Below, one piece after another: positions 9,372 to 25,302 of a stretch of DNA of 64,000 nucleotides. This DNA is from Streptomyces sp. PCS3-D2 (lineage in GTDB: Bacteria; Actinomycetota; Actinomycetes; Streptomycetales; Streptomycetaceae). Both the position numbers and the translations under genes were made by a program. Numbering within the stretch: position 1 is the stretch's first letter; each line of letters opens with the position of its first letter. The notes beneath the pieces are model-generated. The model ran no database searches and was not told the origin of the DNA. It worked only from the letters and a program-made list of their open reading frames with translations. The DNA lies in contig NZ_CP097800.1 in NCBI RefSeq assembly GCF_000612545.2, positions 5,530,501 through 5,594,500 on the forward strand. The letters are read 5' to 3'.

Positions 9372-11123
9372 TCAGAGGCCGAGCTCGACCTCGAACTCGC
9401 CGGCCTCGAGGATCGCCTTGACCGCGGTGAGGTACCGGGCCGCGTCCGCGCCGTCCACCAGACGGTGGTCGTAGGACAGGGTCAGGTACGTCATGTCGCG
9501 GATGCCGATGTTGGTGCCCTCGGCGGTCTCGATGACCACCGGGCGCTTGACCGTGGCACCGATGCCCAGGATGGCGACCTGGTTCGGCGGCACGATGACC
9601 GTGTCGAACAGCGCACCGCGCGAACCGGTGTTGCTGATGGTGAAGGTCGCGCCCGACAGCTCGTCCGGCGTGATCTTGTTGCCGCGGACCTTGGCGGCCA
9701 GGTCGGCGGTCGCCTTGGAGATGCCGGCCAGGTTGAGGTCGCCCGCACCCTTGATGACCGGGGTCATCAGGCCCTTCTCGGAGTCCACGGCGATGCCGAT
9801 GTTCTCCGAGTCGAAGTAGGTGATGGTGCCTTCGTCCTCGTTGATCCGGGCGTTGACGACCGCGTGGGCCTTCAGCGCCTGGGCGGCGGCCTTGACGAAG
9901 AACGGCATCGGGGACAGCTTGACGCCCTCGCGGGCGAGGAAGCCGGCCTTGGCCTTCTCGCGCAGCTTCATGATCTTGGTGATGTCCACCTCGACCACGG
10001 AGCTGAGCTGAGCCTGCGAGTGCAGGGCCTTCATCATGTTGTCGCCGATGACCTTGCGCATGCGGGTCATCTTGACGGTCTGACCGCGCAGCTCGGAGAC
10101 CGCGGCGGCCGGGGCCTTGGCGGCCGGAGCGGCGGCCGGGGCCGGCGCGGCGGCAGCGGCCTTGGCGGCCTCGGCGGCGGCCAGGACGTCCTGCTTGCGG
10201 ATGCGTCCGCCGACACCCGTGCCCGAGACGGCGGACAGGTCCACGCCGGACTCCGAGGCGAGCTTGCGCACCAGCGGGGTCACGTACGCGCCCTCGTCGC
10301 CGGCGGACGCCGGGGCAGCGGCCGGAGCCGGGGTCACCGGAGCCGGGGCGGCCACCGGGGCGGCGGGCTGGACCGGAGCCGGAGCGGCGGCCGGGGCGGG
10401 CTGGACCGGAGCCGGAGCCGGAGCCGGGGCCGGAGCGGCAGCCGGGGCCGCGGGGGCCTCGGCGGCGGGGGCCGGGGCTGCGGCCGGGGCCGGAGCGGCC
10501 GGGGCGGCACCGGCGACGCCGATGACGGCCAGACGCGCGCCGACCTCGGCGGTCTCGTCCTCGCCGACCAGGATCTCCAGCAGGGTGCCGGAGACCGGCG
10601 CGGGGATCTCGGTGTCGACCTTGTCCGTGGACACCTCCAGCAGCGGCTCGTCGGCCTCGACCGACTCGCCGACGGCCTTCAGCCAGCGGGTGACGGTGCC
10701 CTCGGTGACGGACTCGCCCAGGGCGGGCAGCACGACATCGGTGCCGGAGGCGGCAGGGGCTTCGGCAGCGGGGGCCTCGGCGGCCGGAGCCGGGGCCGCG
10801 GGGGCCTCGGCAGCGGGGGCCGGAGCGGCCGCGGGGGCCTCGGCGGCGGCCGGCTCGGCAGCCGGGGCGGCCGCCGGGGCGCCGGAACCGTCGTCGATGA
10901 CGGCCAGCTCGGCGCCGACCTCGACGGTCTCGTCCTCGGCGACCTTGATGGAGGCCAGGATGCCGGCGACGGGCGACGGGATCTCGGTGTCGACCTTGTC
11001 GGTCGAGACCTCGAGCAGCGGCTCGTCGGCCTCGACGCGCTCGCCCTCGGCCTTCAGCCAGCGGGTGACAGTGCCCTCAGTGACGCTCTCGCCGAGCGCC
11101 GGAAGGGTTACGGAAACCGACAT
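9372..11123 (-). CDS. sucB: Dihydrolipoyl acyltransferase E2 (2-oxo acid dehydrogenase)
   Basis: Forms the E2 core, moving acyl groups from the lipoyl arm to CoA. The 583 residues contain two lipoyl domains (about 1-80 and 127-205, each with an [10 protein letters not shown] lipoylation loop), very long Ala/Pro-rich swinging linkers, a peripheral subunit-binding domain ([17 protein letters not shown]), and a catalytic domain ending with SYDHRLVDG (DHRxxDG). It is commonly annotated as succinyltransferase, but in actinobacteria this protein also serves pyruvate dehydrogenase, which fits with aceE nearby. AAGGAG precedes the ATG. It lies 54 bp downstream of lpdA in the same direction, so the two are probably co-transcribed. 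Confidence 0.95.
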
Positions 11124-11177
11124 GGTTTCTGTTGCTCCTTACGAAAGTGCGGAAGTGGTCGTCGCGCCCGGGACGAA

Positions 11178-12566
11178 CTAGTCGTGCGAGTGAAGCGGCT
11201 TGCCGGCCAGGGCCAGGTGGGCCTCGCCGAGCGCCTCGTTCTGGGTCGGGTGCGCGTGGATGAGCTGCGCGACCTCGGCCGGCAGGGCTTCCCAGTTGTA
11301 GATCAGCTGGGCCTCGCCGACCTGCTCGCCCATCCGGTCACCGACCATGTGGACGCCGACCACGGCACCGTCCTTGACCTGGACGAGCTTGATCTCGCCC
11401 GCGGTCTTCAGGATCTTGCTCTTGCCGTTGCCCGCCAGGTTGTACTTGAGGGCCACGACCTTGTCCGCGCCGTAGATCTCCTTGGCCTTGGCCTCGGTGA
11501 TGCCGACGGAAGCGACCTCGGGGTGGCAGTAGGTGACGCGCGGGACACCGTCGTAGTCGATCGGGACGGTCTTGAGACCGGCCAGACGCTCCGCGACCAG
11601 GATGCCCTCGGCGAAGCCGACGTGCGCGAGCTGGAGGGTCGGGACGAGGTCGCCCACGGCCGAGATCGTCGGCACGTTGGTCTGCATGTACTCGTCGACC
11701 AGGACGTAGCCGCGGTCCATCGCGACGCCCTGCTCCTCGTAGCCCAGGCCCTGCGAGACCGGGCCGCGGCCGACGGCGACCAGCAGCACCTCGGCCTCGA
11801 AGGTCTTGCCGTCGGCCAGCGTCACGCGGACGCCGTTCTCGGTGTACTCGGCCTTGTCGAAGAAGGTGCCGAGGTTGAACTTGATGCCGCGCTTGCGGAA
11901 GGCGCGCTCCAGCAGCTTGGAGCTGTTCTCGTCCTCGACCGGCACGAGGTGCTTCAGGCCCTCGATGACGGTGATCTCGGACCCGAAGGACTTCCACGCC
12001 GAGGCGAACTCGACGCCGATGACGCCGCCGCCCAGGACGATCGCGGACTCGGGCACGCGGTCCAGGACGAGCGCGTGGTCCGAGGAGATGATGCGGTTGC
12101 CGTCGATGTTCAGGCCCGGCAGGGACTTCGGCACGGAGCCGGTCGCCAGCAGGATGTGGCGGCCCTGGATGCGCTGGCCGTTCACGTCGACGGAGGTCGG
12201 CGAGGAAAGGCGGCCCTCACCCTCGATGTACGTCACCTTGCGGGAGGCGACCAGGCCCTGCAGGCCCTTGTACAGGCCCGAGATGACCTCGTCCTTGTAC
12301 TTCTGCACCCCCGCGATGTCGATGCCCTCGAAGGTGGCCTTCACGCCGAACTGGGCGGCTTCGCGCGCCTGGTCCGCGATCTCACCCGCGTGCAGCAGAG
12401 CCTTCGTGGGGATGCAGCCGTTGTGCAGGCAGGTGCCGCCGAGCTTGTTCTTCTCGATCAGGGCAACGTCCAGACCCAGCTGGGATGCGCGCAGCGCCGC
12501 GGCGTAACCGCCACTGCCACCGCCGAGGATCACTAGGTCGAAAACGGTGCTGGCGTCGTTCGCCAC
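11178..12566 (-). CDS. lpdA: Dihydrolipoyl dehydrogenase E3
   Basis: A FAD-dependent NAD oxidoreductase that reoxidises dihydrolipoamide for the pyruvate, 2-oxoglutarate and possibly glycine cleavage complexes. GTG at 12566 (preceded by GGAGG with 8-nt spacing) gives 462 residues. The FAD motif GGGSGGYAAA is near the N-terminus, the redox-active disulfide is in GGTCLHNGCIPTKALLHAG, the NAD motif is LGGGVIGVEFAS, and the C-terminal base pair is in HAHPTQNEALGEAH. A longer open reading frame upstream of 12566 lacks family similarity. It is first in a likely lpdA-sucB operon. Confidence 0.96.
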   Translation of the reverse strand: MANDASTVFDLVILGGGSGGYAAALRASQLGLDVALIEKNKLGGTCLHNGCIPTKALLHAGEIADQAREAAQFGVKATFEGIDIAGVQKYKDEVISGLYKGLQGLVASRKVTYIEGEGRLSSPTSVDVNGQRIQGRHILLATGSVPKSLPGLNIDGNRIISSDHALVLDRVPESAIVLGGGVIGVEFASAWKSFGSEITVIEGLKHLVPVEDENSSKLLERAFRKRGIKFNLGTFFDKAEYTENGVRVTLADGKTFEAEVLLVAVGRGPVSQGLGYEEQGVAMDRGYVLVDEYMQTNVPTISAVGDLVPTLQLAHVGFAEGILVAERLAGLKTVPIDYDGVPRVTYCHPEVASVGITEAKAKEIYGADKVVALKYNLAGNGKSKILKTAGEIKLVQVKDGAVVGVHMVGDRMGEQVGEAQLIYNWEALPAEVAQLIHAHPTQNEALGEAHLALAGKPLHSHD

Positions 12567-12796
12567 GTCACGTCCTCCATGCATGTGCGCCGGGCACCGG
12601 TCCTCTGTGACCGGGCGGCGGCTGGTAATCGGCCGCTGTTTCTTCGGCCCTGTGGTGGGGGCCCTGTCCTGCCGAGAACCCATCTTCGCATTTGTCGGGG
12701 GAACGCGGGACGCCGGGCCCACGTTGTGAGAGGGCGTTCTCTCCGAAGCGAGGGTTACCGCGGCGTAGGAACCTACGGATTTCGTCGTCGGCTGAA

Positions 12797-12829
12797 CGCA
12801 CCCCGGGGCCCGCCGGGCCCCGGGGTGCG
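12797..12829 (-). terminator. pepA terminator
   Basis: CGCACCCCGGGGCCC (12797-12811) pairs perfectly with 12815-12829 around a 3-base gap; it lies 22 bases beyond the pepA stop. Confidence 0.8.
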
Positions 12830-12850
12830 TCAGGCGTCACACCGCCCGGG

Positions 12851-14386
12851 TCAGCCCAGGTCGCCCGTGGCCGTGCGCTCGGCCAGCCGCACCAGGGTGC
12901 GCACGGCCGAGCCGGTGCCGCCCTTGGGGGTGTAGCCGTGCGGCGCGCCCTCGTGGAAGGCCGGGCCGGCGATGTCGAGGTGGGCCCAGGTGATGCCCTC
13001 GCCGACGAACTCCTGCAGGAAGAGGCCGGCGATCAGGCCGCCGCCCATGCGGACGCCCATGTTCGCGATGTCCGCGGTGGGGGAGTCCATGGTCTTGCGC
13101 AGCTCGGCGGGGAGCGGCATCGGCCAGGAGGCCTCGCCGACCTCCTCCGCGATCTCGTGGATCGAGGTGCGGAAGGCGTCGTCGTTCGCCATGATCCCGA
13201 AGGTGCGGTCGCCGAGGGCCAGCACCATCGCGCCGGTCAGGGTGGCGACGTCGACGATGGCGTCGGGAGCGTCCTCGGAGGCCTTGGTCAGCGCGTCACC
13301 GAGGACGAGGCGGCCCTCGGCGTCCGTGTTGAGGACCTCGACGGTCTTGCCGCTGTACATGCGCAGCACGTCACCGGGCTTGGTGGCGGAACCGGACGGC
13401 ATGTTCTCGGCGAGCGCGAGCCAGCCGGTGACGTTGACCCGCAGGCCCAGCTTCGCGGCGGCGATGACGGAAGCGAAGACGGCGGCGGCGCCGGCCATGT
13501 CGCACTTCATCGTCTCGTTGTGGCCGGCCGGCTTCAGGGAGATGCCGCCCGAGTCGTAGGTGATGCCCTTGCCGACGAAGGCCAGCGTCTTCTCCGCCTT
13601 GGGGTGCGTGTAGCTGAGCTTCACCAGGCGCGGCGGGTTCTCGGAGCCCTTGCCGACGCCCATGATGCCGCCGTAGCCACCCTTGACCAGGGCCTTCTCG
13701 TCCAGCACCTGGACCTTGACGCCGTTCTCCTTCGCGGCCGCGGAGGCGACCGCGGCGAAGGCCTCGGGGGTCAGGTCGTTCGGCGGGGTGTTGACCAGGT
13801 CACGGGCGACGTTGACCTCGGCGGCGACGACCGCGGCGCGCTCGGCGGCGGCCTTGTGCTCCTTGTCGCGAGGCTTGGCGCCCACCAGGGCCACCTCGGC
13901 GAGCGGCTGCTTCGGACCGGAGTCCTTCTCCTTGCCGGCCTTCTTCTCGCCGCCCTGGTAGGCGGTGAAGGCGTACGCGCCCAGCAGCGCGCCCTCGGCG
14001 ACGGCGGTGACGGCGGAGGCGTCCTCCAGCGGGAGGGCGAAGCCGGCCTTCTTGCTGCCGTGCAGCGCGCGGGCGGCGGCACCGGCGGCGCGGCGCAGTA
14101 CCTCCTCGTCGAACGACTCGTCCTTCTCCGGGACGGAGCCGAGTCCCACCGCCAGCACGACCGGGACCTTGAGGCCCGCCGGGGCCGGCAGCTTGGTGAC
14201 CTCGCCTTCGGCACCCGAGGCGCCGAGCGCGTCCAGGACACCGGCGAGCTTGCCGTCGAACGCCTTGTCCACGGCCTCGGCGCCCGCGGCGACGATCGCG
14301 CCCTTGGGGCCCTTTGCGACACCGACGACGAGGGCGTCGGCGCGCAGCGTCGCCGCGCCGGCAGTGCTGAGAGTCAGAGCAGTCAC
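12851..14386 (-). CDS. pepA: Leucyl (cytosol) aminopeptidase, M17
   Basis: A dinuclear-metal aminopeptidase releasing N-terminal residues, hexameric in the cytoplasm. The 511 residues begin at GTG 14386. The N-terminal macro-like domain is followed by the catalytic domain with VGKGITYDSGGISLKP and NTDAEGRLVLGDAL, which carry the metal ligands and catalytic Arg, and NTPPNDLTP upstream. Length and motifs are standard. It reads in the same direction as lpdA-sucB but is separated by a terminator. Confidence 0.96.
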   Translation of the reverse strand: MTALTLSTAGAATLRADALVVGVAKGPKGAIVAAGAEAVDKAFDGKLAGVLDALGASGAEGEVTKLPAPAGLKVPVVLAVGLGSVPEKDESFDEEVLRRAAGAAARALHGSKKAGFALPLEDASAVTAVAEGALLGAYAFTAYQGGEKKAGKEKDSGPKQPLAEVALVGAKPRDKEHKAAAERAAVVAAEVNVARDLVNTPPNDLTPEAFAAVASAAAKENGVKVQVLDEKALVKGGYGGIMGVGKGSENPPRLVKLSYTHPKAEKTLAFVGKGITYDSGGISLKPAGHNETMKCDMAGAAAVFASVIAAAKLGLRVNVTGWLALAENMPSGSATKPGDVLRMYSGKTVEVLNTDAEGRLVLGDALTKASEDAPDAIVDVATLTGAMVLALGDRTFGIMANDDAFRTSIHEIAEEVGEASWPMPLPAELRKTMDSPTADIANMGVRMGGGLIAGLFLQEFVGEGITWAHLDIAGPAFHEGAPHGYTPKGGTGSAVRTLVRLAERTATGDLG

Positions 14387-14733
14387 GGTGGTGAAGTCTC
14401 GCTTCCGTTTGTGTGTGTGGGCCGAGTGGGTGGACGGCCATCCGTAGCGATCGTATTCGGGGCCCGACGGCCGCCTGCAGGGAGCCTACGCGCACGCGCT
14501 CGCCCGTACGTCACTCGAAGGTTTGGCAAGTTGTTCGATCAAGCAGCCGCCAGGTTCACCCATCCGTGGACTCTGCTCCAGGTTTGCCGCGTAGACCTGA
14601 CGAGGTCCGAAAGACTCGGTCCACTCTCGCAAGGGGACGCGGGGTCCCTTTGCATGATTTCCACAGAGCCTCCCCGGCCCGGCCGACCGCCAAGGGCCGT
14701 GTCGAGGGATGCCCTGCGGGGGGAAAGGCCGAC
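14387..14733. other. Divergent intergenic region, pepA / exopolysaccharide cassette
   Basis: 347 bases without a convincing gene. It must hold the promoters of pepA (minus) and of the deacetylase gene (plus). A weak hairpin (AAGGGGAC with GTCCCTTT, about 14630-14665) is visible. I see no clear operator or riboswitch. Confidence 0.5.
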
Positions 14734-16761
14734 ATGGTCAACAAGAATCGGATGAACAGGCTGGCCGCCGTCATGGCCGCGGCCGCCCTGGTGTCCGTCG
14801 CAGTACCCGCCGCGGCCGCCCAGGCGGCCACGGCACCGCGGATCGACCTCAAGGTGCTCGTCGTCGACGACGGCGGCAGCTCGGTCGAGGCGATCACCGC
14901 GGAGCTCCGCGACACCGGAGTGCCCTACACCCGTGTCCAGCTGGGCAGCAGTGGCCGTCCGGTCATCAACGCGGCGTTCCTGAGCGACACCGTCGACGGC
15001 CGGCCGCGCGCCAAGTACCAGGGCGTGGTGCTGCCCAACGAGAACCCGTTCGGCGAGGGCTCGGCCGAGATGGCCGCGCTCACCGCGTACGAGACGACGT
15101 ACGGGATCCGCCAGGTCGACGCCTACACCTGGGCCCACCCGGGCGTCGGGCTGGAGTACACGGACAACGGAGGCTACAGCGGTCAGCTCGACGGCACCCA
15201 GGCCGCCGTCACCGCGGCCGGCAAGGCCGGCCCCTTCGCCTACCTCGGCGGGCAGGTCACCTTCGAGGACAACTCCGCCCTGGTGCCCGAGAGCTACGGC
15301 TACATGGCCAAGCCGCGCCCCGGCTACACCAGCTACCTCGACGCGCCCGTCGGCTCCGGCCGGGCCTCCCTGGTCGGCGAGTACACGCACGACGGACGCA
15401 GCGAACTGGTCGTCACCTTCGGCTACAACCAGTACCAGCAGCAGTTCCGGCTGCTGGCCCGCGGCATCGTCGACTGGCTGACCCAAGGGGTGCACCTCGG
15501 CCAGAGCCGCAACTACTTCGCGGTCCACGTCGACGACGTGTTCGCCCCCGACGCCCGCTGGAACAAGGAGCTGAACTGCACGCCGGGCGACTACGCCTGC
15601 GCGGGCGGCGAGGGCCAGGAGAGCACCATCCGGATGAGCGCCGCGGACGCGGTGTACGCGGCGCAGTGGCAGACGTCCAAGAACTTCAAGCTGGACATGC
15701 TCTTCAACGGCGGGGCCGGTGAGGAGTGGAAGGCCGAGAACGGCGGCGTCGACGAACTCACCGCCCAGCTCGTCGCCGACCGGGCCAAGTACCGCTGGAT
15801 GAACCACACCTACACGCACCCGTTCCTCGGCTGCATCCAGAACACCGCCGTCGTGCCGTGGACCTGCACCACGGACGCCCAGGGCGCGATCCAGTACATG
15901 AGCCGCGCCGAGATCTCCGCCCAGATCCGCGACAACAACAACTGGGCCGCCGCCAAGGGCATCGTCCTCGACAGGACCGAACTCGTCACCGGCGAGCACT
16001 CCGGCCTCAAGACCGCTCCCCACCAGCCCGTGGACAACCCCAACCTGGCCGCCGCCCTCGCCGACAACGGCGTGAAGTGGGCCGGCAGCGACAACTCCCG
16101 CGAGCCCGACCAGCGCCCGGTCGGCTCCGCCCTCACGGTCCCCCGCCACCCCATGAACGTGTACTACAACACGGGCACCAACGCCGAGATGGCCGACGAG
16201 TACAACTGGATCTACACCAGCCGCGCCCACGGCGGCAGCGGCGTCTGCGAGGACAACCCGGCGACGTCCACCTGCCTGCCCGCCCCGCTGGACGTCACCA
16301 CCGGCTACCTCGACTACATCGTCCCGGCCGAGGCCCGCACCGCCCTGCGGCACGTCCTGGCCAACGACCCGCGGCCGCACTACGTCCACCAGTCCAACCT
16401 GGCCGAGGACCGGACCCTCTACCCGGTGCTCAACCAGGTCCTCGACACCTACCGTGCCCTCTACGCGCCGAGCGCTCCGATCGTCAACCAGTCCATGAAG
16501 GACACCGGTGTCGAGTTCCAGCGCCGCGCGGCCTGGGACAAGGCCCTCGCCGACGGCAAGGTCACGGCCTACCGCATCGGCAACGACGTCACCATCAAGG
16601 CCCCCTCCGGAGTCGTCGCACCAATCACCGCCCCCAACGGCACCAAGAAGCAGATGCTGCTCGGCACGGCGGACTTCGGCACCGCCTACGCCGGCAGCCG
16701 CTCCGCCTGGACCGCCCCCGAGCTCCTGCAGCGCTCCATCACGCTCAAGCTGCCCAGCTGA
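14734..16761 (+). CDS. Secreted Agd3-like polysaccharide deacetylase
   Basis: A 675-residue exported protein. After an N-terminal signal peptide (about residues 1-33, ending AAAAQAATA) there is a Rossmann-like region (LKVLVVDDGGSSVEAI), a central beta-rich part, and a deacetylase domain with HVDDVF (265-270) and NHTYTH (His358 and His362), matching the D-D...H-x3-H metal arrangement of NodB-type and CE18 deacetylases. The domain order resembles fungal Agd3, which N-deacetylates galactosaminogalactan. The neighbouring genes support removal of acetyl groups from an amino-sugar exopolysaccharide. The start at 14734 is chosen for its signal peptide; ATG at 14752 is an alternative. It is first in the cassette, 92 bp before pelF. 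Confidence 0.82.
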   Translation: MVNKNRMNRLAAVMAAAALVSVAVPAAAAQAATAPRIDLKVLVVDDGGSSVEAITAELRDTGVPYTRVQLGSSGRPVINAAFLSDTVDGRPRAKYQGVVLPNENPFGEGSAEMAALTAYETTYGIRQVDAYTWAHPGVGLEYTDNGGYSGQLDGTQAAVTAAGKAGPFAYLGGQVTFEDNSALVPESYGYMAKPRPGYTSYLDAPVGSGRASLVGEYTHDGRSELVVTFGYNQYQQQFRLLARGIVDWLTQGVHLGQSRNYFAVHVDDVFAPDARWNKELNCTPGDYACAGGEGQESTIRMSAADAVYAAQWQTSKNFKLDMLFNGGAGEEWKAENGGVDELTAQLVADRAKYRWMNHTYTHPFLGCIQNTAVVPWTCTTDAQGAIQYMSRAEISAQIRDNNNWAAAKGIVLDRTELVTGEHSGLKTAPHQPVDNPNLAAALADNGVKWAGSDNSREPDQRPVGSALTVPRHPMNVYYNTGTNAEMADEYNWIYTSRAHGGSGVCEDNPATSTCLPAPLDVTTGYLDYIVPAEARTALRHVLANDPRPHYVHQSNLAEDRTLYPVLNQVLDTYRALYAPSAPIVNQSMKDTGVEFQRRAAWDKALADGKVTAYRIGNDVTIKAPSGVVAPITAPNGTKKQMLLGTADFGTAYAGSRSAWTAPELLQRSITLKLPS

Positions 16762-16793
16762 CCGTCCCGCACGACACCACCGAGTAGCACCGC

Positions 16794-16824
16794 GCCGGCG
16801 CTCCGCGAACCCACGGGCGCCGGC
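16794..16824 (+). terminator. Intercistronic hairpin between deacetylase and pelF-like genes
   Basis: GCCGGCGC (16794-16801) pairs with GCGCCGGC (16817-16824), followed by CCCCTTTT. It could reduce read-through or process the mRNA between the deacetylase and the coupled downstream genes. Confidence 0.45.
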
Positions 16825-16853
16825 CCCTTTTCCGTCCTGGGGGGACACACCGC

Positions 16854-18407
16854 ATGAGTCATGGGCGTCACGTCACCATGCTCACCGAAGGCACCTATCC
16901 ACACGTCCACGGGGGCGTCAGCACCTGGTGCGACCAACTGGTCCGCGGCATGCCGGAGGTCGACTTCAACGTCATAGCCCTGACCGGCTCCGGACGCGAG
17001 CCGGTCACTTGGGAACTGCCCCGCAACGTCTACCGGCACACGGCCGTCCCGCTCTGGGGGCCGCCACCCGGCCGGGGCCGCCGGTCGGCCCTGCGCGGCA
17101 AGGCCCACCGCCGTTTCACCGAGGTCTACGAGCGCCTCCTGCTCGCCCTGCTCGACCCGGCTGCCGACCCTGCCGACCGCACCTTCTCCGAGGCCCTGCG
17201 CGAGCTCGCGGTGCTGGCCCGGGCCGGGAAACTCGCCGCGGCCCTGCGGTCCGAATCGGTTCTGCGCCTCCTGATGAAGGTCTGGACCCGGCCCGGCCTG
17301 TCCACCGCCGAGGCGGCGCCCACCATCCACGACGCGCTCACCGTGACCGACCTGCTGGAACACGCGCTGCGCCCGCTCGCGGTCCGCATCCCGCCCGACA
17401 GCGTCGCGCACGCCGTCAGCAGCGGCCTCGCCACCCTGCCCGCGCTCGCCGCCAAACACCTCGACGGGGTGCCCTTCCTCCTCACCGAGCACGGCATCTA
17501 CCTGCGCGAGCGCTACCTCGGCTACCGCACCGCCGAACAGCGCTGGCCCGTCAAGGCGCTCATGCTCGCCTTCTACCGCGAGCTCAACACCGAGGGCTAC
17601 CGCCAGGCCGACCTGATCACCCCCTGCAACCAGTACAACCGCCGCTGGGAGGAGCGCGGAGGCGCCGACTCCGAGCGGATCCGCACGGTCTACAACGGCG
17701 TCGACCCGCACGCCTTCCCCGAGGCCGGGCCCGAACCGGACGTGCCCACCCTCAGCTGGTGCGGCCGCATCGACCCGATCAAGGACCTCGAAACACTGGT
17801 CCGGGCCTACGCCTTCATGCGCGAGGAGCTGCCCGCCCTGAGGCTGCGCCTCTTCGGCCCCGTCCCGGCCGGCTGCGAGGACTACAAGCTGCGCCTGGAG
17901 AAGCTCGCCGCCGAACTCGGCGTGACCGACGGGATCACCTACGAGGGCCGCATCGAGCAGGTCGCCCGGGCCTACGCGGCCGGTTCCGTCGTGATGCTCT
18001 CCTCCATCAGCGAGGGCTTCCCCTTCAGCATCATCGAAGCCATGTCCTGCGGCCGCACCACCGTCTCCACCGACGTCGGCGGCGTCCGCGAGGCCGTCGG
18101 GGACACCGGTCTGGTCGTGCCGCCGCGCGAGCCCGAAACCATGGCCCGCGCCACCCTCGCCCTGCTCCGCGACGACGAACGCCGTGCCGAACTCGGCCGG
18201 ATGTCGCGCAAGCGGGTCGTGGAGAAGTTCACCCTCCACCAGTCCGTCGACGGCTTCCGGCACATCTACCGGGAACTGGCGGGCCAGCCCGTCCTGCCCG
18301 TCCACGCGGGCGACGCGTGGACCCAGCGGCTCGCCGACCCCTGGTACCGCGAACTCGCGGCCCTGGGGCGTTCCCACAAAGAGGCCGGGAAAGGGGGGGC
18401 CTGGTGA
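16854..18407 (+). CDS. pelF: PelF-like GT4 exopolysaccharide glycosyltransferase
   Basis: A cytoplasmic UDP-sugar glycosyltransferase of the GT4/GT-B fold. The 517 residues open with MLTEGTYPHVHGGVSTWCDQ, the strongly conserved PelF N-terminal signature. The central TEHGIYLRERY and the C-terminal CGRIDPIKDL and SEGFPFSIIEAMSCG follow, the last carrying the retaining EX7E pair (Glu387 and Glu395). PelF polymerises the Pel polysaccharide from UDP-GalNAc/GlcNAc, so an N-acetylhexosamine polymer is the expected product here. It overlaps the next gene by 4 nt (GTGA). The symbol is by similarity; no other canonical pel gene names apply cleanly. Confidence 0.87.
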   Translation: MSHGRHVTMLTEGTYPHVHGGVSTWCDQLVRGMPEVDFNVIALTGSGREPVTWELPRNVYRHTAVPLWGPPPGRGRRSALRGKAHRRFTEVYERLLLALLDPAADPADRTFSEALRELAVLARAGKLAAALRSESVLRLLMKVWTRPGLSTAEAAPTIHDALTVTDLLEHALRPLAVRIPPDSVAHAVSSGLATLPALAAKHLDGVPFLLTEHGIYLRERYLGYRTAEQRWPVKALMLAFYRELNTEGYRQADLITPCNQYNRRWEERGGADSERIRTVYNGVDPHAFPEAGPEPDVPTLSWCGRIDPIKDLETLVRAYAFMREELPALRLRLFGPVPAGCEDYKLRLEKLAAELGVTDGITYEGRIEQVARAYAAGSVVMLSSISEGFPFSIIEAMSCGRTTVSTDVGGVREAVGDTGLVVPPREPETMARATLALLRDDERRAELGRMSRKRVVEKFTLHQSVDGFRHIYRELAGQPVLPVHAGDAWTQRLADPWYRELAALGRSHKEAGKGGAW

Positions 18408-19954
18408 GCGGATCCCTCTGGCTCAAGCCGCCCGGATCCGGGCCGGGCGCCGGCTCCGGAACCCTCCCGGCGATCCCCCGGCCGCGTGCCGGGGACGCCG
18501 GGCCCGCCGCCGACCCGATGGACGAACTGGCCGAACGCCTCGACGTGTTCATCGCCTCCGCCGTCCACCCCGACGAGATCGCCGCCGTCCTCGAATCCGA
18601 CGGCATGACCGACGAGTACATCCGGCTCACCTACGGCCGACGTGACTCCTTCGCCCTCGCCGAGGAGCTCTACGCACGCGTGCCCCGCTCCTTCCCGGAG
18701 CCGGGGCCCGCCGCCGACCCCTGGAAGGTCTCCCTCTCCGCCTGCCTGTTGCGCGGGGTCATCTTCGCCCTGCCCGGCCTGGCCTACCTCCTGGGCGCCC
18801 CCCTCCTCGAAGGCCCGCCGGACCGCCTCGGCCTGCCCGCCGGGACCCTGACCCTGCTCGCCGGAGCGCTCATAGGGTGGTGCTGGGACCAGACCCTGTC
18901 CCACCGCGCCTACTCCTGGCTCGGCCTCGGCGACCGGCCCGCCGCCGGGCGGACCCTGCTCGTCGGCGCCCCCGTCGGAGCCCTGCTGGGCACCGCCGCG
19001 GCGCTGTCCGTGCCCGGCGGGCCGCCGTTCTCCTCCGCCTTCGCCGCCGGTCAGGCCCTGTACGTCGGGGCCGCCACCTGCCTGCTGGTCCTCGGCCGGG
19101 AGCGGGTGCTGCTCGCGGCCCTCGCCCCGATGGCCGCCGGAGCCGTGGCCGTGCTCTTCGTCGACCTGCCCGTGCCGGTCCGGGTGACGCTCCTGGTGGT
19201 GTCCCTGGTGGCCGCCTGCACCCTGGCCCTACGGGAGCTCCCGCTGGCCGACGGGCTCCGGGCCGCCGCACGCCGGATCCGGGGCCGGGCGGCCCGCCGG
19301 CCCGCCCGCGTCGGTCCGGTGCGCTGGCAGATGCTGCGCGGCGCCGAGGAGGAGTACGCGTCCCGCGGACCCCGGCTCGGGGACTCGGTGCCCTTCGGCG
19401 TGTTCGGCCTGGGCACGGGCCTGCTCGTGCTCTACGCCGCCCTGGGCGAGGTGCTCGCCGGAGGTCCGGCCGAGGCCGTCGCCGCTCCGTCGGCGGTGGC
19501 CCTCACCCTCAGCATGGGCCCCGCCGAGTGGCTGCTGCACCGCTTCCGCAGCGGCACCCTCTCCGGGCTCCAGGGGGCCCGCTCGCCCCGCCAGTTCCGG
19601 CGCCGGATGCTGACCACCCTGGCCCGCTGCCTCGGCGTCTACCTGTCGGTGCTGCTGGCCCTCGGCGTGACCGGAACCCTCCTGTGGCCCGGAGCCCCCG
19701 GGCTCACCGGGGTCCGCGTCGCCACCCTGCTGCTCCTCGGGACGGTCATGTGGAGCGGGCTGCTCCTGCAGTCCTTCGGAGCCGTCCGGCCCGCGGCCGT
19801 GGTCTGCGCCTCGGCCGCCGTCGCCCAGAGCTTGGCCCTGCTGACCGGGCTGGCCCAGCCCCGGGCCGTCCAGCTGATCGTCGCGGGCACGGCCGCCGCC
19901 GCGCTGGCCACCCTGGTATGCCTGCTCCTGGGCCGCGCGACCGCCCACCGATGA
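18404..19954 (+). CDS. Polytopic membrane protein of the exopolysaccharide cassette
   Basis: A 516-residue protein starting at a GTG that overlaps the pelF stop. About 110 N-terminal residues are soluble, with a conserved-looking segment AVLESDGMTDEYIRLTYGRRD and FALAEELYARVPR. The rest contains about ten to twelve hydrophobic helices with a basic loop near residues 290-320. I do not recognise the family. The position between a polymerase and two glycosidases makes it the candidate exporter or synthase partner (the PelG-like role), but the topology alone does not prove it. It overlaps the downstream gene by ATGA. Confidence 0.75.
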   Translation: MSGSLWLKPPGSGPGAGSGTLPAIPRPRAGDAGPAADPMDELAERLDVFIASAVHPDEIAAVLESDGMTDEYIRLTYGRRDSFALAEELYARVPRSFPEPGPAADPWKVSLSACLLRGVIFALPGLAYLLGAPLLEGPPDRLGLPAGTLTLLAGALIGWCWDQTLSHRAYSWLGLGDRPAAGRTLLVGAPVGALLGTAAALSVPGGPPFSSAFAAGQALYVGAATCLLVLGRERVLLAALAPMAAGAVAVLFVDLPVPVRVTLLVVSLVAACTLALRELPLADGLRAAARRIRGRAARRPARVGPVRWQMLRGAEEEYASRGPRLGDSVPFGVFGLGTGLLVLYAALGEVLAGGPAEAVAAPSAVALTLSMGPAEWLLHRFRSGTLSGLQGARSPRQFRRRMLTTLARCLGVYLSVLLALGVTGTLLWPGAPGLTGVRVATLLLLGTVMWSGLLLQSFGAVRPAAVVCASAAVAQSLALLTGLAQPRAVQLIVAGTAAAALATLVCLLLGRATAHR

Positions 19955-20655
19955 CGCCCGAGACGTATCTGCCGGACAAGAAGAAGGACCCCATGCTGCT
20001 GGTGCCCCTGTACGAGCATCCCGCCGAACGGCCCGAGGCCTGGGAGCGGCTCATCCGCGGCGCGGACCGGCTCCACTCGGTGGTCCTCAACCCCGGCAGC
20101 GGACCCGGCGCCGCCCGCGACGAGCGGTTCGCGAGCGTCGCCGAGCGGCTCCGGGAGGCCGGCGTGCCCGTCCTCGGCTACGTCGACACCGACTACGGGC
20201 GCCGCCCGCACGCCGCGGTGGTGCAGGACCTGCTGCGCCACCGCGACTGGTACGCCGCCGACGGGGCCTTCCTCGACCAGGCCGCCGCCGACCCCGAACT
20301 GCTCCCGCACTACGGGCGGCTCACGGTCGCCGCCCGGGCCGCGGGCGCCCGTACGCTCGTCCTCAACCACGGGGCACACCCGCATCCGGGCTACGTGGAA
20401 CTCGCCGACCTGCTCGTCACCTTCGAGGGCCCCTGGGACGCCTACCGGGCGGCGGGGGCGCCACCGCCTTGGACCGCCGACCACCCCGCCCAGCGGTTCT
20501 GCCACCTCGTGTACGGCGTCCCTCCCGGAGAGATCGCCGCCCGGCTCGCCGGAGCACTCGCCGCGCAGCGGGGTGCGGGCGTGCACTGCGCGGTCCCGGG
20601 CAACGGCCCGCACCCGTGGGGCACCCTCCCGTACGCCCTGGAGACGGCGGGATGA
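19951..20655 (+). CDS. Spherulin-4 family glycosidase (Sph3-like)
   Basis: A 234-residue TIM-barrel-like protein. The diagnostic segment is LLVPLYEHP, then LHSVVLNPGSGPG, VLGYVDTDYGRRP, GAFLDQAA and TLVLNHGAHPHPGY, as in spherulation-specific family 4 proteins. Aspergillus Sph3 (GH135) of this family cleaves galactosaminogalactan and is needed for its synthesis. No signal peptide is evident from the ATG at 19951; an ATG at 19993 starts right at the domain. The location is therefore uncertain (cytoplasmic or non-classical). It overlaps both neighbours by 4 nt, so it is translationally coupled. Confidence 0.82.
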   Translation: MTPETYLPDKKKDPMLLVPLYEHPAERPEAWERLIRGADRLHSVVLNPGSGPGAARDERFASVAERLREAGVPVLGYVDTDYGRRPHAAVVQDLLRHRDWYAADGAFLDQAAADPELLPHYGRLTVAARAAGARTLVLNHGAHPHPGYVELADLLVTFEGPWDAYRAAGAPPPWTADHPAQRFCHLVYGVPPGEIAARLAGALAAQRGAGVHCAVPGNGPHPWGTLPYALETAG

Positions 20656-21473
20656 GGACACCGCGGCCGCTGCGACTCCTGCTGGTCCTGCCCCTCCTGC
20701 TGCTCGCCGCCTGCACGGCCGGACCGGACGACGACGGCGAACCGCGCCGCCGGCCGGAAACCGCTCCCGGCGGGCGCTGGCAGCCCCCGCCCGGCACCGA
20801 CTGGCAGTGGCAGCTCACCGGCAGGCTCGACACCTCGGTGAAGGCGCCCGTCTACGACGTCGACGGGTTCACCACCACGCGGGAACAGGTCGCCGAGCTG
20901 CGCAAGGCCGGCCGCCGGACCATCTGCTACCTCTCCACCGGGGCGTGGGAGGACTTCCGGCCGGACGCGGAAGCGTTCCCGCGGGACCTGCTCGGCAAGG
21001 GCAACGGCTGGGAGGGCGAGCGCTGGCTGGACATCCGGCGCGTGGCGGAACTGGAGCCCCTGATGGCCAAGCGGTTCGACATGTGCCGGGAGAAGGGTTT
21101 CGACGCGGTCGAGCCGGACAACATGGACGGCTACAAGAACGCCTCCGGATTCCCGCTCACCGCCGACGATCAGCTGCGCTACAACCGGCTGATCGCGAAG
21201 CTCGCACACGACCGGGGCATGGCCGTCGGCCTGAAGAACGACCTCGACCAGATCCCGCAGCTCGTCGGGGACTTCGACTTCGCGGTCAACGAGCAGTGCG
21301 CGCAGTACGACGAGTGCGACCGGCTGACCCCCTTCATCGAGGCCGGCAAGGCCGTCTTCCACGCGGAGTACGAACGGTCGACGTCGAGTTTCTGCAGGGG
21401 GTCGAAGACACTGCGGCTCAGCTCGATCCAGAAGCGGTACGACCTCGACGCCTGGCGCAGGACCTGCCCCTAG
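20652..21473 (+). CDS. GH114 endo-alpha-1,4-polygalactosaminidase-like lipoprotein
   Basis: A 273-residue lipoprotein with lipobox LLAAC (Cys21). The GH114 domain follows, with WQWQLTGRLDTSVKAPVYDVD, ICYLSTGAWEDFRPDA, RFDMCREKGFDAVEPDNMDG (acidic catalytic candidates), and GLKNDLDQIPQLVGDFDFAVNEQC. Family members cut alpha-1,4-galactosamine polymers; fungal Ega3 and the PelA hydrolase domain are relatives. On the outer membrane face it could trim or release the deacetylated polymer made by this cassette. It is the last gene of the coupled set and converges on the histidine kinase gene. Confidence 0.85.
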   Translation: MRTPRPLRLLLVLPLLLLAACTAGPDDDGEPRRRPETAPGGRWQPPPGTDWQWQLTGRLDTSVKAPVYDVDGFTTTREQVAELRKAGRRTICYLSTGAWEDFRPDAEAFPRDLLGKGNGWEGERWLDIRRVAELEPLMAKRFDMCREKGFDAVEPDNMDGYKNASGFPLTADDQLRYNRLIAKLAHDRGMAVGLKNDLDQIPQLVGDFDFAVNEQCAQYDECDRLTPFIEAGKAVFHAEYERSTSSFCRGSKTLRLSSIQKRYDLDAWRRTCP

Positions 21474-21480
21474 GACGCGT

Positions 21481-21516
21481 GTCCTGCGTGGCCGCCGGTC
21501 AGGCCCACGGCAGGAC
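21481..21516. terminator. Convergent terminator, exopolysaccharide cassette / kinase
   Basis: GTCCTGC-GTGG (21481-21491) pairs with CCAC-g-GCAGGAC (21505-21516), with a one-base bulge. It spans the short gap and the 3' end of the minus-strand kinase gene. Confidence 0.6.
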
Positions 21517-22707
21517 GGCGTGCACGCGGTAGCCGCCGCCGAAGCGGGGGCCCGTGGAGCAGGAACCGCCCAGGGCCGTGGCCCGCTCCCGCATGCCGAG
21601 CAGGCCGTGGCCGCCGCCCGGCTCGACGTCGGCGGGCTCCGTGCCCCCGTCGTCGAGCACGGTCACCTCCACCGACGGGCCGACCCGGACCACGCTCACT
21701 TCGGCCCGCGCCCCCGGCCCCGCGTGCTTGCGCACGTTGGTCAGCGCTTCTTGGACGACCCGGTACGCCGCCAGGTCCACCGCCGCCGGCAGGGGCCCCG
21801 TCCCGCAGTCCAGCTGGACGATCACCTCCACCGGCAGTCCGGCGTGCCGGAAGGTGTCCACCAGCTCGTCGAGGACGCCGAGCCCCGGGGCCGGCTCGGT
21901 CGGCGCCTCCGGGTCCCCGGACTGCCTGAGCAGGCCGACGGTCGCCCGCAGCTCGTTGAGCGCCGACCGGCTGGCCTCCCGTACGTGCGCCAGCGCCTCC
22001 TTGGCCTGGTCCGGCCGCTTGTCCATGACGTGCGCGGCCACCCCGGCCTGCACGTTGACCAGGGCGATGTGGTGGGCCACCACGTCGTGGAGGTCCCGGG
22101 CGATCCGCAGCCGCTCCTCCGCGACCCGCCGCCGGGCCTCCTCGTCGCGGGTGCGCTCGGCCCGTTCGGCGCGCTCGCGGATGGCGTCGACGAAGGCCCG
22201 TCGGCTGCGCACGGCGTCCCCGGCCGCCGCGGCCATGCCCGTCCAGGCGAAGATCCCGAGGTTCTCCTGCGCGTACCAGGGCAGCGGCCCGGCGAGCATC
22301 GCCACGCCCGTCAGGCCCGTCATCGTGAGCAGCCCGATCCGCCAGGTCGTCGGCCGGTCGGTGTGGGCCGCCACCGTGTAGAGGGCGATCACCGTGCACA
22401 TGGCGACCGGTGCCCGCGGCTCCCCGGTGGTCAGCTCCAGCAGCGAAAGCCCGCAGGTCACCGCGAGCACGGAGCGCGGCCGCCGGCGCCGGAACACCAG
22501 CGCCGCCGAGCCGAGCAGCATCAGCAGCAGGGAGAAGGGCTCGGGGGTACGCGTCCCGAAGGTGGGCCCGTGCGGCCCGTGCGGATCGGCGAAGGAGCCG
22601 ACGACCATGGCGACGAGCGCGCCGAACGCCAGTACGCCGTCCGTGGCCAGCGGATGGCCCCGCAACCACTGTCGGGTGGGGGCGAACGGCCCGCGGTCTG
22701 TCGTCAC
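21499..22707 (-). CDS. Sensor histidine kinase, NarX/DesK type
   Basis: A 402-residue kinase with four to six hydrophobic segments in residues 20-165, a short coiled linker, a HisKA_3 dimerisation domain with RDLHDVVAHH (phospho-acceptor His207), and a C-terminal HATPase_c region with DDGG and GGGHGLLGMRERA. Kinases of this type pair with NarL/LuxR regulators. None is adjacent; the nearest is at 32725-33453, about 10 kb away. It starts at GTG 22707, 31 bp after the rhomboid-like gene on the same strand, so it may be co-transcribed with it. The signal is unknown. Confidence 0.92.
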   Translation of the reverse strand: MTTDRGPFAPTRQWLRGHPLATDGVLAFGALVAMVVGSFADPHGPHGPTFGTRTPEPFSLLLMLLGSAALVFRRRRPRSVLAVTCGLSLLELTTGEPRAPVAMCTVIALYTVAAHTDRPTTWRIGLLTMTGLTGVAMLAGPLPWYAQENLGIFAWTGMAAAAGDAVRSRRAFVDAIRERAERAERTRDEEARRRVAEERLRIARDLHDVVAHHIALVNVQAGVAAHVMDKRPDQAKEALAHVREASRSALNELRATVGLLRQSGDPEAPTEPAPGLGVLDELVDTFRHAGLPVEVIVQLDCGTGPLPAAVDLAAYRVVQEALTNVRKHAGPGARAEVSVVRVGPSVEVTVLDDGGTEPADVEPGGGHGLLGMRERATALGGSCSTGPRFGGGYRVHAVLPWA

Positions 22708-22738
22708 CCCGATACGGTACGGCCTACCGGGGAGCCGC

Positions 22739-23440
22739 TCAGGGCGGAGGGCCCTGGCCGACCGGGACGCGGGAGCGCACCTGGCTCCACCGGGCCCGGA
22801 CCACGCACACGGCCATGACGGCGGCGATGGCCGCCAGGTGCTCCTTGCCGGCCAGGTTGTTCTTGACCAGCACCTCGCCGATCATCGAGAGGATCACCAG
22901 GGCGCCGGTCAGGTACGCCCGGTGGCGCCAGCAGAGGTAGAGGGCGAGGCCGACCACCGCCGCCGAGGGCCCGGTGTCGTTGACGATGCGGTCGGAGACC
23001 GGCAGTCCGAAGGGGTGCTCCGGGCCGAGCGCGACACCGATCCGCGCGTAGGTGGTCCCGGCGAGGGTGGCGAGGTAGCCGATCACCAGCGTGCGCCACC
23101 AGCCGATGCAGATCTCCGCGATGCCGAACACCAGGAGCATCTGCGCGAGCGCACCCCACACCGGCAGGTCGAGGGCCGGAACGAACAAGGACAGGGGGGT
23201 GCGCAGCAGGGCCAGCCAGAACGGGTCGACGGCCTTGACCGAACCGAGGTCCTGCACCGGCTGGAAGCCCCACGAGGTGTTCTGCACGATCTGGAAGACA
23301 AGGGTCAGGCAGACCGCGCCCAGGGTCATCGGGATCGCCCGCCATCCGTCGCGGGCGAGGGCGTCCCGGACGGTCCAGAACATGGGGCCCCACTCGCGGC
23401 GGGCGAACCGCCGCAGTGGTGTGCTGTTCCACGCTGTCAA
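22739..23440 (-). CDS. Rhomboid-like membrane protein
   Basis: A 233-residue integral membrane protein. The TTG at 23440 overlaps the stop of the MprF-like gene (TTGA), which supports this unusual start. It has six or so hydrophobic helices. Rhomboid-like features are visible: DTGPSAAVVGLALYL, with Ser in a GxS context, and KEHLAAIAAV, with His in the last helix. The usual GASG sequence is not present, so it may be an inactive or divergent rhomboid. Coupling to a lipid-modifying enzyme gene suggests a shared envelope role. Confidence 0.7.
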   Translation of the reverse strand: MTAWNSTPLRRFARREWGPMFWTVRDALARDGWRAIPMTLGAVCLTLVFQIVQNTSWGFQPVQDLGSVKAVDPFWLALLRTPLSLFVPALDLPVWGALAQMLLVFGIAEICIGWWRTLVIGYLATLAGTTYARIGVALGPEHPFGLPVSDRIVNDTGPSAAVVGLALYLCWRHRAYLTGALVILSMIGEVLVKNNLAGKEHLAAIAAVMAVCVVRARWSQVRSRVPVGQGPPP

Positions 23441-25302
23441 CGGCGGGTCTCCAGGTGTCTGCGGTGCAGCCACTTCGGAAGGCCGGGGGCCTCCAGGAAG
23501 CCCTCGGCCCGGCCGGCCGCGACACCGATGCGCAGCAGGTCCGAACTCTTCTCGAAGAGCATGAACCGCGGTTCCCAGATCGGGCGGTATTTGGCGTTGG
23601 CCCGGTAGAGGGACTCGATCTGCCACCAGCGCGAGAAGAAGCTCAGCAGCGAGCGCCACAGCCGCAGCACGGGGCCCGCTCCGAGCCGGGACCCGCGTTC
23701 GAAGACCGACCGGAACATCGCGAAGTTCAGCGAGACCTGGGTGACCCCGATCTCCGCGGAGCGTGCGAGCAGCTCGATGACCATGAACTCCATCAGGCCG
23801 TTCTCGGAGTCCCGGTCGCGGCGCATCAGGTCCAGCGACAGCCCCCCCGGGCCCCACGGCACGAAGGACAGCACGGCCCGCAGATCGCCGTCTCCGTCGG
23901 TGCACTCCAGCATCACGCACTGGCCGTCCGCGGGGTCGCCCAGCCGGCCCAGCGCCATGGAGAAACCGCGTTCGGTGGCACCGTCGCGCCAGTCGTCGGC
24001 GCGGCGCACCAGCTCGGCCATCTCCTCGGCCGGGATGTCGGCGTGGCGGCGGATGCGGACCGTGTACCCGGCCCGCTTGACGCGGTTGTACGCCTGCCGG
24101 ACGGTGCGCATGGCACGGCCCTCCAGGGTGAATTCGGCGGTCTCCACGATCGCCTCGTCGCCGAGCTCCAGGGCGTCCAGGCCGTGCCGGGCGTAGATCT
24201 GCCCGGCCTCTTCGCTCGCGCCCATCACGGCCGGTACCCAGCCGTGCTCGCGCGCCTCGGCCAGCCACGGGTCGATGGCCCCGGGCCAGGCCTCCGGGTC
24301 GCCGATCGGGTCGCCGGAGGCGAGCGAGACCCCGCCGACGACGCGGTAGGTCACGGCGGCCTTGCCGGTGGGGGACCAGATGACGGACTTCTCGCGGCGC
24401 AGCGCGAAGTAGCCGAGCGAGTCGCGGTCTCCCTGCCGGGCCAGCAGCGCCCGCAGCCGCTCCTCGTCCTCCTCGCTGATCGGGTCGACGGCGCGCCGCG
24501 AGCGGAACGCCGCGAACAGGACGGCGAGCAGCAGCAGCATCGACATGACGTTGATGAAGACGTCCACCCAGCCGGGCGGGGTGATCGCCGCGGAGGTCCG
24601 GTCGTCGGGGGCCAGGGTGATCAGCCGCATCACGCCGTATTTCCAGCGCTCCGGGAAGGAGACGCCGGCACTGTCGGGGGAGGTGTTGGCGGCTCCCACG
24701 AGGAGGGCCGCGACGAGCGAGGTGACGAGCAGGCCGACGGCGGCCACGGCGGCGGCGAACGCCGGGTTGGAGCGGTCGCCCTTGGCGTAGAACTCCCGGC
24801 GGCCCAGCAGCAGCGCACCCGTGAAGAGGGCGGTCAGGGCCAGCGAGACCCAGTTCTGCGGGTGCTCGCGGATCTCCTCGTACGCGGCGAGCGCGTAGGC
24901 GAGGAGCAGGGCCAGGAGGCCGCTCAGGACGAGGTTCAGGATCCAGGAGGCGCGCTTGCGGCGGCCGAGGGTGACGGCCAGCAGCAGCGTGAACAGCCCG
25001 GACGCGAAGCCCGCGGTGAGCATGTACGGGGTGTAGAAGTCCTCGATGTTGTGGCGCCGCAGGTCCTGGCCGAGTGAAACCCACACCGCGCTGAGGAAGT
25101 TGATGAAGGTGACGGCGCGCAGGTACCAGACCGCGAACGCGGCTCCGCGCTGTGAGCGGGCGCTCCCCCGACCGGTCTCCCGGCCGCCCCCCGCCGCCTT
25201 GCCGGCGGGGTCCCCGCCGGTCTCTTTCCTGCCGGATGACGGACCGGTCGCCGGTACGGCGGTGCGGTCGGTCTGTGCGCTGGTCAAACGGACCTCTCCC
25301 AT
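23437..25302 (-). CDS. MprF-like membrane protein with DUF2156 domain
   Basis: A 621-residue protein with about six to eight N-terminal membrane helices (residues about 55-285) followed by a cytoplasmic GNAT-like DUF2156 domain (RDSLGYFALRREKSVIW, SGDPIGDPEAW, FTLEGRAMRTVRQAYNRVKRAGY, LDLMRRDRDSENGLMEFMVIELL). This is the domain of phosphatidylglycerol lysyltransferases, which transfer an aminoacyl group from tRNA to membrane lipid. The amino acid used is unknown. ATG 25302 has no Shine-Dalgarno; a TTG at 25287 is preceded by GGGAGAGG. Both are possible given the promoter position. It is first in a likely operon with the rhomboid-like and kinase genes. Confidence 0.85.
   Translation of the reverse strand: MGEVRLTSAQTDRTAVPATGPSSGRKETGGDPAGKAAGGGRETGRGSARSQRGAAFAVWYLRAVTFINFLSAVWVSLGQDLRRHNIEDFYTPYMLTAGFASGLFTLLLAVTLGRRKRASWILNLVLSGLLALLLAYALAAYEEIREHPQNWVSLALTALFTGALLLGRREFYAKGDRSNPAFAAAVAAVGLLVTSLVAALLVGAANTSPDSAGVSFPERWKYGVMRLITLAPDDRTSAAITPPGWVDVFINVMSMLLLLAVLFAAFRSRRAVDPISEEDEERLRALLARQGDRDSLGYFALRREKSVIWSPTGKAAVTYRVVGGVSLASGDPIGDPEAWPGAIDPWLAEAREHGWVPAVMGASEEAGQIYARHGLDALELGDEAIVETAEFTLEGRAMRTVRQAYNRVKRAGYTVRIRRHADIPAEEMAELVRRADDWRDGATERGFSMALGRLGDPADGQCVMLECTDGDGDLRAVLSFVPWGPGGLSLDLMRRDRDSENGLMEFMVIELLARSAEIGVTQVSLNFAMFRSVFERGSRLGAGPVLRLWRSLLSFFSRWWQIESLYRANAKYRPIWEPRFMLFEKSSDLLRIGVAAGRAEGFLEAPGLPKWLHRRHLETRR

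Follow-up and report, generated by a model that had tools for sequence, protein, structure and literature searches.

A Streptomyces gene cassette of the bacterial agd3/Pel-like kind and the exopolysaccharide it is predicted to make

The DNA analysed here is a stretch of 64,000 nucleotides, called the window below, from Streptomyces sp. PCS3-D2 (contig NZ_CP097800.1, positions 5,530,501 to 5,594,500 of the forward strand). Five plus-strand genes at positions 14734-21473 of the window code for a protein of family CE18, a PelF-like glycosyltransferase of family GT4, a membrane protein (MP), a spherulin-4 protein of the GH135 type (SPH), and a GH114 protein. We consider it likely that these genes form an exopolysaccharide cassette of the bacterial agd3/Pel-like kind in Streptomyces and work by the mechanism proposed below; the product is probably a partly de-N-acetylated polymer of N-acetylgalactosamine (GalNAc). 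A sequence-only reading made earlier had located these five genes at the same place with the last four joined by 4-nt stop-start overlaps, and the coordinates confirm this (GT4-MP, 18404-18407; MP-SPH, 19951-19954; SPH-GH114, 20652-20655); CE18 and GT4 are separated by 92 nt.

Relatives of the cassette were taken from the best 80 of 411 MP relatives, of which 78 are named Streptomyces and 2 are named Actinobacteria bacterium. The CE18 protein had been described as a secreted Agd3-like deacetylase with the motifs HVDDVF and NHTYTH. Both motifs were found, and the predicted model matches the Agd3 fold over residues 34-675, with a CBM87 domain, a CE barrel and a beta-rich C-terminal domain; this fold evidence is that of VIA-align on Foldseek's ranking only. 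Pfam Agd3_CE (21.6 bits, E = 1.3e-4) and CBM87_Agd3 (19.5 bits, E = 8.8e-4) match in the correct order along the protein, each under the cut-off of 27.6 bits, and among 25 aligned CE18 members the best E for Agd3_CE is 2.2e-8. Against PDB sequences CE18 had no hit with an E of 1 or less, whether searched as a single sequence or as a profile. Since the sequence searches are sub-threshold, it is because of the fold match that we place this protein as Agd3-type. When the catalytic residues of Agd3 are taken from the text of PMC7229062, the CM1 pair D267-D268 and the CM2 residues H358/H362 of CE18 are invariant (77/77). R456, R471 and H549/H552, which were compared with the CM3 Arg and with M666/H668 of CM4 in Agd3, are also invariant (77/77), and the M-x-H spacing of CM4 was not found in CE18. 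A hydropathy leader is present in the window protein and in 72 of 76 relatives.

The GT4 scores 172.9 bits against the NCBIfam PelF model NF038011, above the curated cut-off of 100, and 201.2 bits against DUF3492, so the claim that it is PelF-like stands. The EX7E motif reported for it is at E387/E395 and is invariant in 79/79. In a tree, the cassette GT4s form a branch apart from three PelG-linked GT4s with a support of 100/100. The next gene product, noted before as a polytopic membrane protein, is predicted to have a 12-helix 6+6 MOP fold (MATE/Wzx/MurJ). Unlike MATE, WzxE, MurJ and PelG, it carries an extra N-terminal helical domain and has no sequence-family match: no meaningful match was obtained against Pfam, NCBIfam and PDB sequences, or by hhalign against three PelG sequences, which make a shallow template. 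The PelG family PF16933 has no match in the genome of PCS3-D2, MP included. PelG itself is described in the text of PMC13254593 as a 12-helix protein of the MOP superfamily. PelG exceeds its cut-off in 3 of 296 Actinomycetota, and an exporter of a non-PelG sequence family would explain why searches based on PelG miss such loci. Neither PelD nor PelE was found with Pfam among the five cassette and seven flanking proteins, the whole genome not having been searched for them.

The last two genes had been read as coding for a spherulin-4 glycosidase and a GH114 lipoprotein, and both assignments are well above cut-off. SPH scores 109.6 bits against Spherulin4 PF12138 (cut-off 30.2) and matches Sph3 (5c5g) with E = 2.5e-11; D109 and E159, aligned with the Asp/Glu pair of Sph3, are invariant in 78/78. 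The GH114 protein scores 285.6 bits against PF03537 (cut-off 27) and matches Ega3 (6oj1) with E = 1.2e-57 and 198 bits; D156 and E214, invariant in 68/68, align with the Ega3 Asp/Glu pair of the published D189/E247 spacing. Hydropathy shows a leader in the window protein and 66 of 67 relatives, and a lipobox-like motif occurs in 64 of the 67. SPH, on the other hand, is leaderless: in 77/77 relatives the first barrel motif lies within 25 residues of the start that was chosen, and only one of the 77 has a lipobox-like motif. In 18 of 18 chosen cassette loci no start up to 110 residues upstream would add a hydrophobic leader to SPH; the best 12-residue hydropathy mean in that upstream region is 1.12 compared to 2.4 in true leaders. 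From their N-termini, SPH is probably cytoplasmic, and CE18 and GH114 probably lie outside the cell.

The order lipoamide dehydrogenase-pepA-CE18-GT4-MP-SPH-GH114 is complete in 62 of the 80 loci fetched by MP. Among the other 18, eleven are without GH114 (presence scored by tblastn at E up to 1e-8), one is without SPH and six are broken by contig ends. CE18, GT4, MP and pepA are together in 76/76 loci whose contig reaches far enough. Because the full order recurs in this way, it is not due to chance, and the check on gene order that the sequence-only reading had proposed thus comes out in its favour. Its view of the locus as an exopolysaccharide cassette is supported as well: the glycosyltransferase is above the PelF cut-off, the deacetylase has the Agd3 fold, the two glycosidases are within their families, and the order is conserved. 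When genomes were drawn evenly from the class, 21 of 40 Streptomyces genomes (8 with two copies) and 5 of 354 non-Streptomyces genomes had CE18, two of the five being weak. In one genome of another family (L185), CE18, GT4, SPH and GH114 are in the window's order; the membrane protein there has no BLAST match to that of the window and was assigned by position and a weak alignment (25% identity). Three further loci (L186, L187, L188) are rearranged or contain other genes. It was also considered that GH114 tracks CE18 across genomes, and this was dropped because 55 of 61 Streptomyces genomes have a GH114 gene, some of them without a cassette; the link between GH114 and CE18 holds only for the neighbourhoods examined. 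Five Streptomyces genomes (G031, G027, G019, G037, G057) have GH114 at cassette-type scores (278-299 bits) and cassette MP hits that are weak or absent, and GH114 genes of another class, with lower scores of about 116-193 bits, are present in many genomes.

Sister cassettes were seen in a comparison set of 19 Streptomyces loci besides the window's own stretch. Nine are of the same type as the window (type A) and are at pepA, one of these (L038) being without an SPH match. Ten are not at pepA, namely, one type-A-like locus (L048) and nine loci of type B (L039, L042-L047, L049, L050), in which a LegB-like 4,6-dehydratase, a nucleotidyltransferase, and a short-chain dehydrogenase/reductase (SDR) lie between MP and SPH. 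GH114 is within the stretch in six of the nine. The type-B families were named from one locus, L046, where the dehydratase scores 444.6 bits against TIGR04180 LegB (cut-off 475), the nucleotidyltransferase 140.8 bits with its best model (cut-off 440), and the GalE/RmlD-like SDR 53.1 bits. These nucleotide-sugar genes suggest a different sugar donor in type B. Type C consists of GT4-MP-SDR-SPH in 11 of 11 loci (L189, L190, L191, L258-L265), its membrane protein being a shorter paralogue of MP, and in stretches of 11 to 19 kb neither CE18 nor GH114 was matched (E up to 1e-5) in any of the 11. One type-C locus is in the genome of PCS3-D2 itself (L191 6196-10509, about G000:C1:2674200-2678500). 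Hence SPH adjoins a PelF-like GT4 even without CE18 nearby; seven of the type-C loci were picked via SPH, L258 with SPH and MP known, and three via GT4/MP, so that this link is fully independent in three.

A leaderless SPH could have been special to types A and B, and this idea was weakened by 22 control SPH genes. Four have a leader (L192, L209, L239, L240), 14 have no hydrophobic leader (L244-L257), and four (L238, L241, L242, L243) were unusable because the start search gave none or only short starts. Seven of the 14 leaderless controls were examined with extra DNA and all seven adjoin a type-C GT4. A second SPH gene of PCS3-D2 (G000:C1:6888132-6888857, L192 5920-6915) is outside any cassette and has a clear hydrophobic leader; it probably codes for a secreted relative of the cassette SPH. 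Genome searches with PF12138 missed the type-C SPH of PCS3-D2 and that of G056, which tblastn revealed with 43% and 41% identity, respectively, and therefore the family counts are too low.

What the sequence shows directly is the order of the genes, their families, the predicted folds, the conservation of catalytic residues and the presence or lack of leaders; from these we infer the sugar, the linkage, the direction of transport, the activities, the internal role of GH135 and aggregation. We propose that the PelF-type GT4 would polymerise N-acetylhexosamine on the cytoplasmic side of the membrane, that the MOP-fold protein would export the chain in the role of PelG, that secreted CE18 would strip part of the acetyl groups to give a cationic, adhesive polymer, and that membrane-anchored GH114 would cut deacetylated stretches outside; these four steps are proposed because of the families to which the proteins belong. 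The donor would most likely be UDP-GalNAc from a GalE-type epimerase encoded outside the cassette, the genome having three GalE homologues over cut-off, and this is a guess because there is no epimerase in the cassette. In the text of PMC11356417, PMC7229062 and PMC12054363, N-acetylated galactosaminogalactan is given as the substrate of GH135 and the deacetylated polymer as that of GH114. These specificities agree with the predicted locations: a leaderless GH135 would encounter the chain within the cell, while it is still acetylated, and GH114 would encounter it on the exterior, deacetylated. The leaderless GH135-type enzyme may trim or clear the fully acetylated chain before or during export. 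For this internal role we have a slight preference.

More tentatively, and with odds that we would put somewhat below even, the three Streptomyces types may share a core of PelF-like GT4, MOP exporter and cytoplasmic GH135 that would be a synthase lineage of the actinomycetes' own. The N-terminal domain of the exporter could be regulatory and GH135 could edit the acetylated chain before export. To this core type A would add CE18 and GH114; type B would add CE18, in most cases GH114, and a nucleotide-sugar module whose product would be another amino sugar, possibly a 6-deoxy one; and type C would add an SDR, with neither CE18 nor GH114. The two glycosidases would then be separated by the membrane, and each would suit the acetylation state on its own side.

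Several points weigh against the reading of the locus as a cassette for a GalNAc polymer. The polymer is a prediction from the genes, the cassette has no epimerase, and the dehydratase, nucleotidyltransferase and SDR point to another sugar in type B. PelG and the exporter are not linked by sequence, and having the MOP fold does not by itself prove polysaccharide transport. GH114 is unmatched in 11 of the 80 loci although the contig continues, and SPH in one, so neither is essential; GH114 also occurs in cassette-free Streptomyces, which are included in the 55 of 61 given above. In SPH, Q110 takes the place of the Glu that follows the catalytic Asp in Sph3 (78/78), and 12 of the 77 SPHs pass a plain hydropathy threshold, though their hydrophobic stretch lies inside the barrel, not before residue 20. 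Finally, leaders were judged by hydropathy only.

Alternatively, the cassette SPH could be a part of the synthase with a regulatory or otherwise non-catalytic function, and no glycosidase. It is leaderless, it adjoins GT4 in all three cassette types, and it has the Gln beside the catalytic Asp, but the Asp/Glu pair aligned with that of Sph3 is invariant in 78/78, and we regard a subunit role as unlikely. Another explanation is that the locus is the same exopolysaccharide machine with another N-acetylhexosamine or a 6-deoxy-N-acetylhexosamine as the main sugar, its likeness to the galactosaminogalactan system being in enzyme families only. That 9 of the 10 comparison loci off pepA carry the LegB-like dehydratase, nucleotidyltransferase and SDR, that type A is without an epimerase and that the CE18 sequence is very distant from Agd3 are in its favour. 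However, type A itself has no sugar-nucleotide genes, and its GH114 is close to Ega3, an enzyme of galactosamine polymers, with the catalytic residues kept; a different main sugar seems to us improbable. That the locus serves scavenging or attack, with CE18, GH114 and SPH degrading fungal or bacterial galactosamine polymers and the GT and transporter serving otherwise, is very improbable. In its favour, an endogalactosaminidase is secreted by Streptomyces griseus (cited in the text of PMC7229062) and Streptomyces also has GH114 genes outside cassettes and secreted SPH genes. Against it, the polymerase is of the PelF family with an invariant EX7E and its gene overlaps that of the transporter, the fold matches of MP are exporters and flippases, and ABC or PTS families have no match among the five proteins of the cassette.

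The locus belongs to a kind of cassette that has been described before. The idea of a bacterial cassette is not new and is in print in the text of Bamford 2020 (PMC7229062), which reports Agd3 homologues in 45 bacterial species. In the bacterial agd3 operons described there, a multi-spanning membrane protein and a cytoplasmic GT are always present, GH114 is 'highly consistent', and spherulin-4 occurs in some Actinobacteria. The window cassette shares with them CE18, the cytoplasmic GT, the multi-spanning membrane protein and the usual GH114, and with the operons of those Actinobacteria also spherulin-4; the fold of the membrane protein, the location of spherulin-4 and a division into cassette types are not given in that text. 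The Gram-positive pelDEADAFG locus, in which deacetylase PelADA and hydrolase PelAH are separate (text of Whitfield 2020, PMC7112168), has in common with the cassette a PelF-family GT, a separate deacetylase and hydrolase and a MOP-fold exporter. It differs in having PelG, which the genome of PCS3-D2 lacks, in having PelADA where the cassette has CE18, and in having a PelAH-like hydrolase where the cassette has GH135 and GH114.

The sequence-only reading had called the locus a prokaryotic counterpart of the fungal cluster, and this is supported, with limits. GH135, glycosyltransferase, CE18 and GH114 families are all shared with the galactosaminogalactan cluster of Aspergillus (uge3, sph3, gtb3/gt4c, agd3, ega3), but separate hydrolase and deacetylase genes are also found in Gram-positive pel loci, and the window cassette has no epimerase. 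For SPH the likeness is in the GH135 family but not in the place of action, since the cassette protein is leaderless and looks cytoplasmic whereas fungal Sph3 is membrane-bound and acts outside (text of PMC12054363). A bacteria-to-fungi transfer is a hypothesis in the text of PMC7229062. Similarity to the fungal enzymes is very uneven, with 198 bits for GH114 and 47 bits for SPH, while phmmer (E up to 1) gave no match for CE18, and GH114 being far closer to its fungal enzyme than SPH or CE18 would argue against a simple one-step transfer. What is added here is the MOP-fold exporter without a detectable sequence link to PelG, the leaderless GH135 and the sister cassettes; the exporter fold, the leaderless GH135 and the three types were not found described in the abstracts and text passages (figures and supplements apart) that searches of open-access papers returned.

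Streptomyces hyphae clump into pellets and adhere to surfaces, which is relevant to fermentation and to soil. Galactosamine-containing polysaccharides have been reported from Streptomyces (cited in the text of PMC7229062), and the cassette, with CE18 in 21 of 40 sampled genomes, is a concrete candidate source of them. The leaderless GH135 also makes the question of polymer-cutting enzymes in polymer-making loci testable in a simple host.

The features are collected in Table 1. The cassette is bounded on the left by a divergent leucyl aminopeptidase gene (pepA) and lipoamide dehydrogenase, and on the right by a convergent histidine kinase gene. By this locus the nearest named relatives are S. 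yangpuensis and S. virginiae, where MP reaches 92% in its best segment. With start codons of the relatives chosen by script as those nearest to the expected position, the 4-nt overlap is present in 68/77 for GT4-MP, 33/77 for MP-SPH and 60/66 for SPH-GH114, and the median distance from CE18 to GT4 is 110 nt (n = 76).

Table 1. Features of the cassette, in positions of the window
Feature	Position	Strand	Basis or remark
CE18/CBM87 Agd3-type secreted polysaccharide de-N-acetylase	14734..16761	+	
PelF-family GT4 glycosyltransferase (DUF3492 + GT4), predicted polymerase	16854..18407	+	NF038011, DUF3492, EX7E
Membrane protein (MP), 12-helix MOP-fold with N-terminal helical domain, predicted exporter in PelG's place	18404..19954	+	
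Spherulin-4/GH135-type glycosidase (SPH), leaderless, predicted cytoplasmic	19951..20655	+	PF12138, Sph3 match, D109/E159, barrel start
GH114 endo-galactosaminidase-type lipoprotein	20652..21473	+	PF03537, Ega3 match, D156/E214, lipobox-like motif
Conserved non-coding element, possible promoter/regulator site	14649..14670	+	85 nt upstream of CE18 start

An Rfam scan of positions 11000-24000 gave no match at gathering score, and a mir-995 match there, with a score far below gathering, was taken as chance. Of 76 type-A upstream regions, 67 contain the 22-base element upstream of CE18 (Table 1) when up to 4 edits are allowed; it was not found upstream of CE18 in the five type-B loci and one type-A-like locus tested. 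Its 17-mer core has one match in the genome at up to 2 mismatches, which is this site, and a reversed control pattern of the core also has one match. The element is possibly a promoter or a regulator site. Further conserved blocks upstream of CE18 are near 14550-14580 and 14608.

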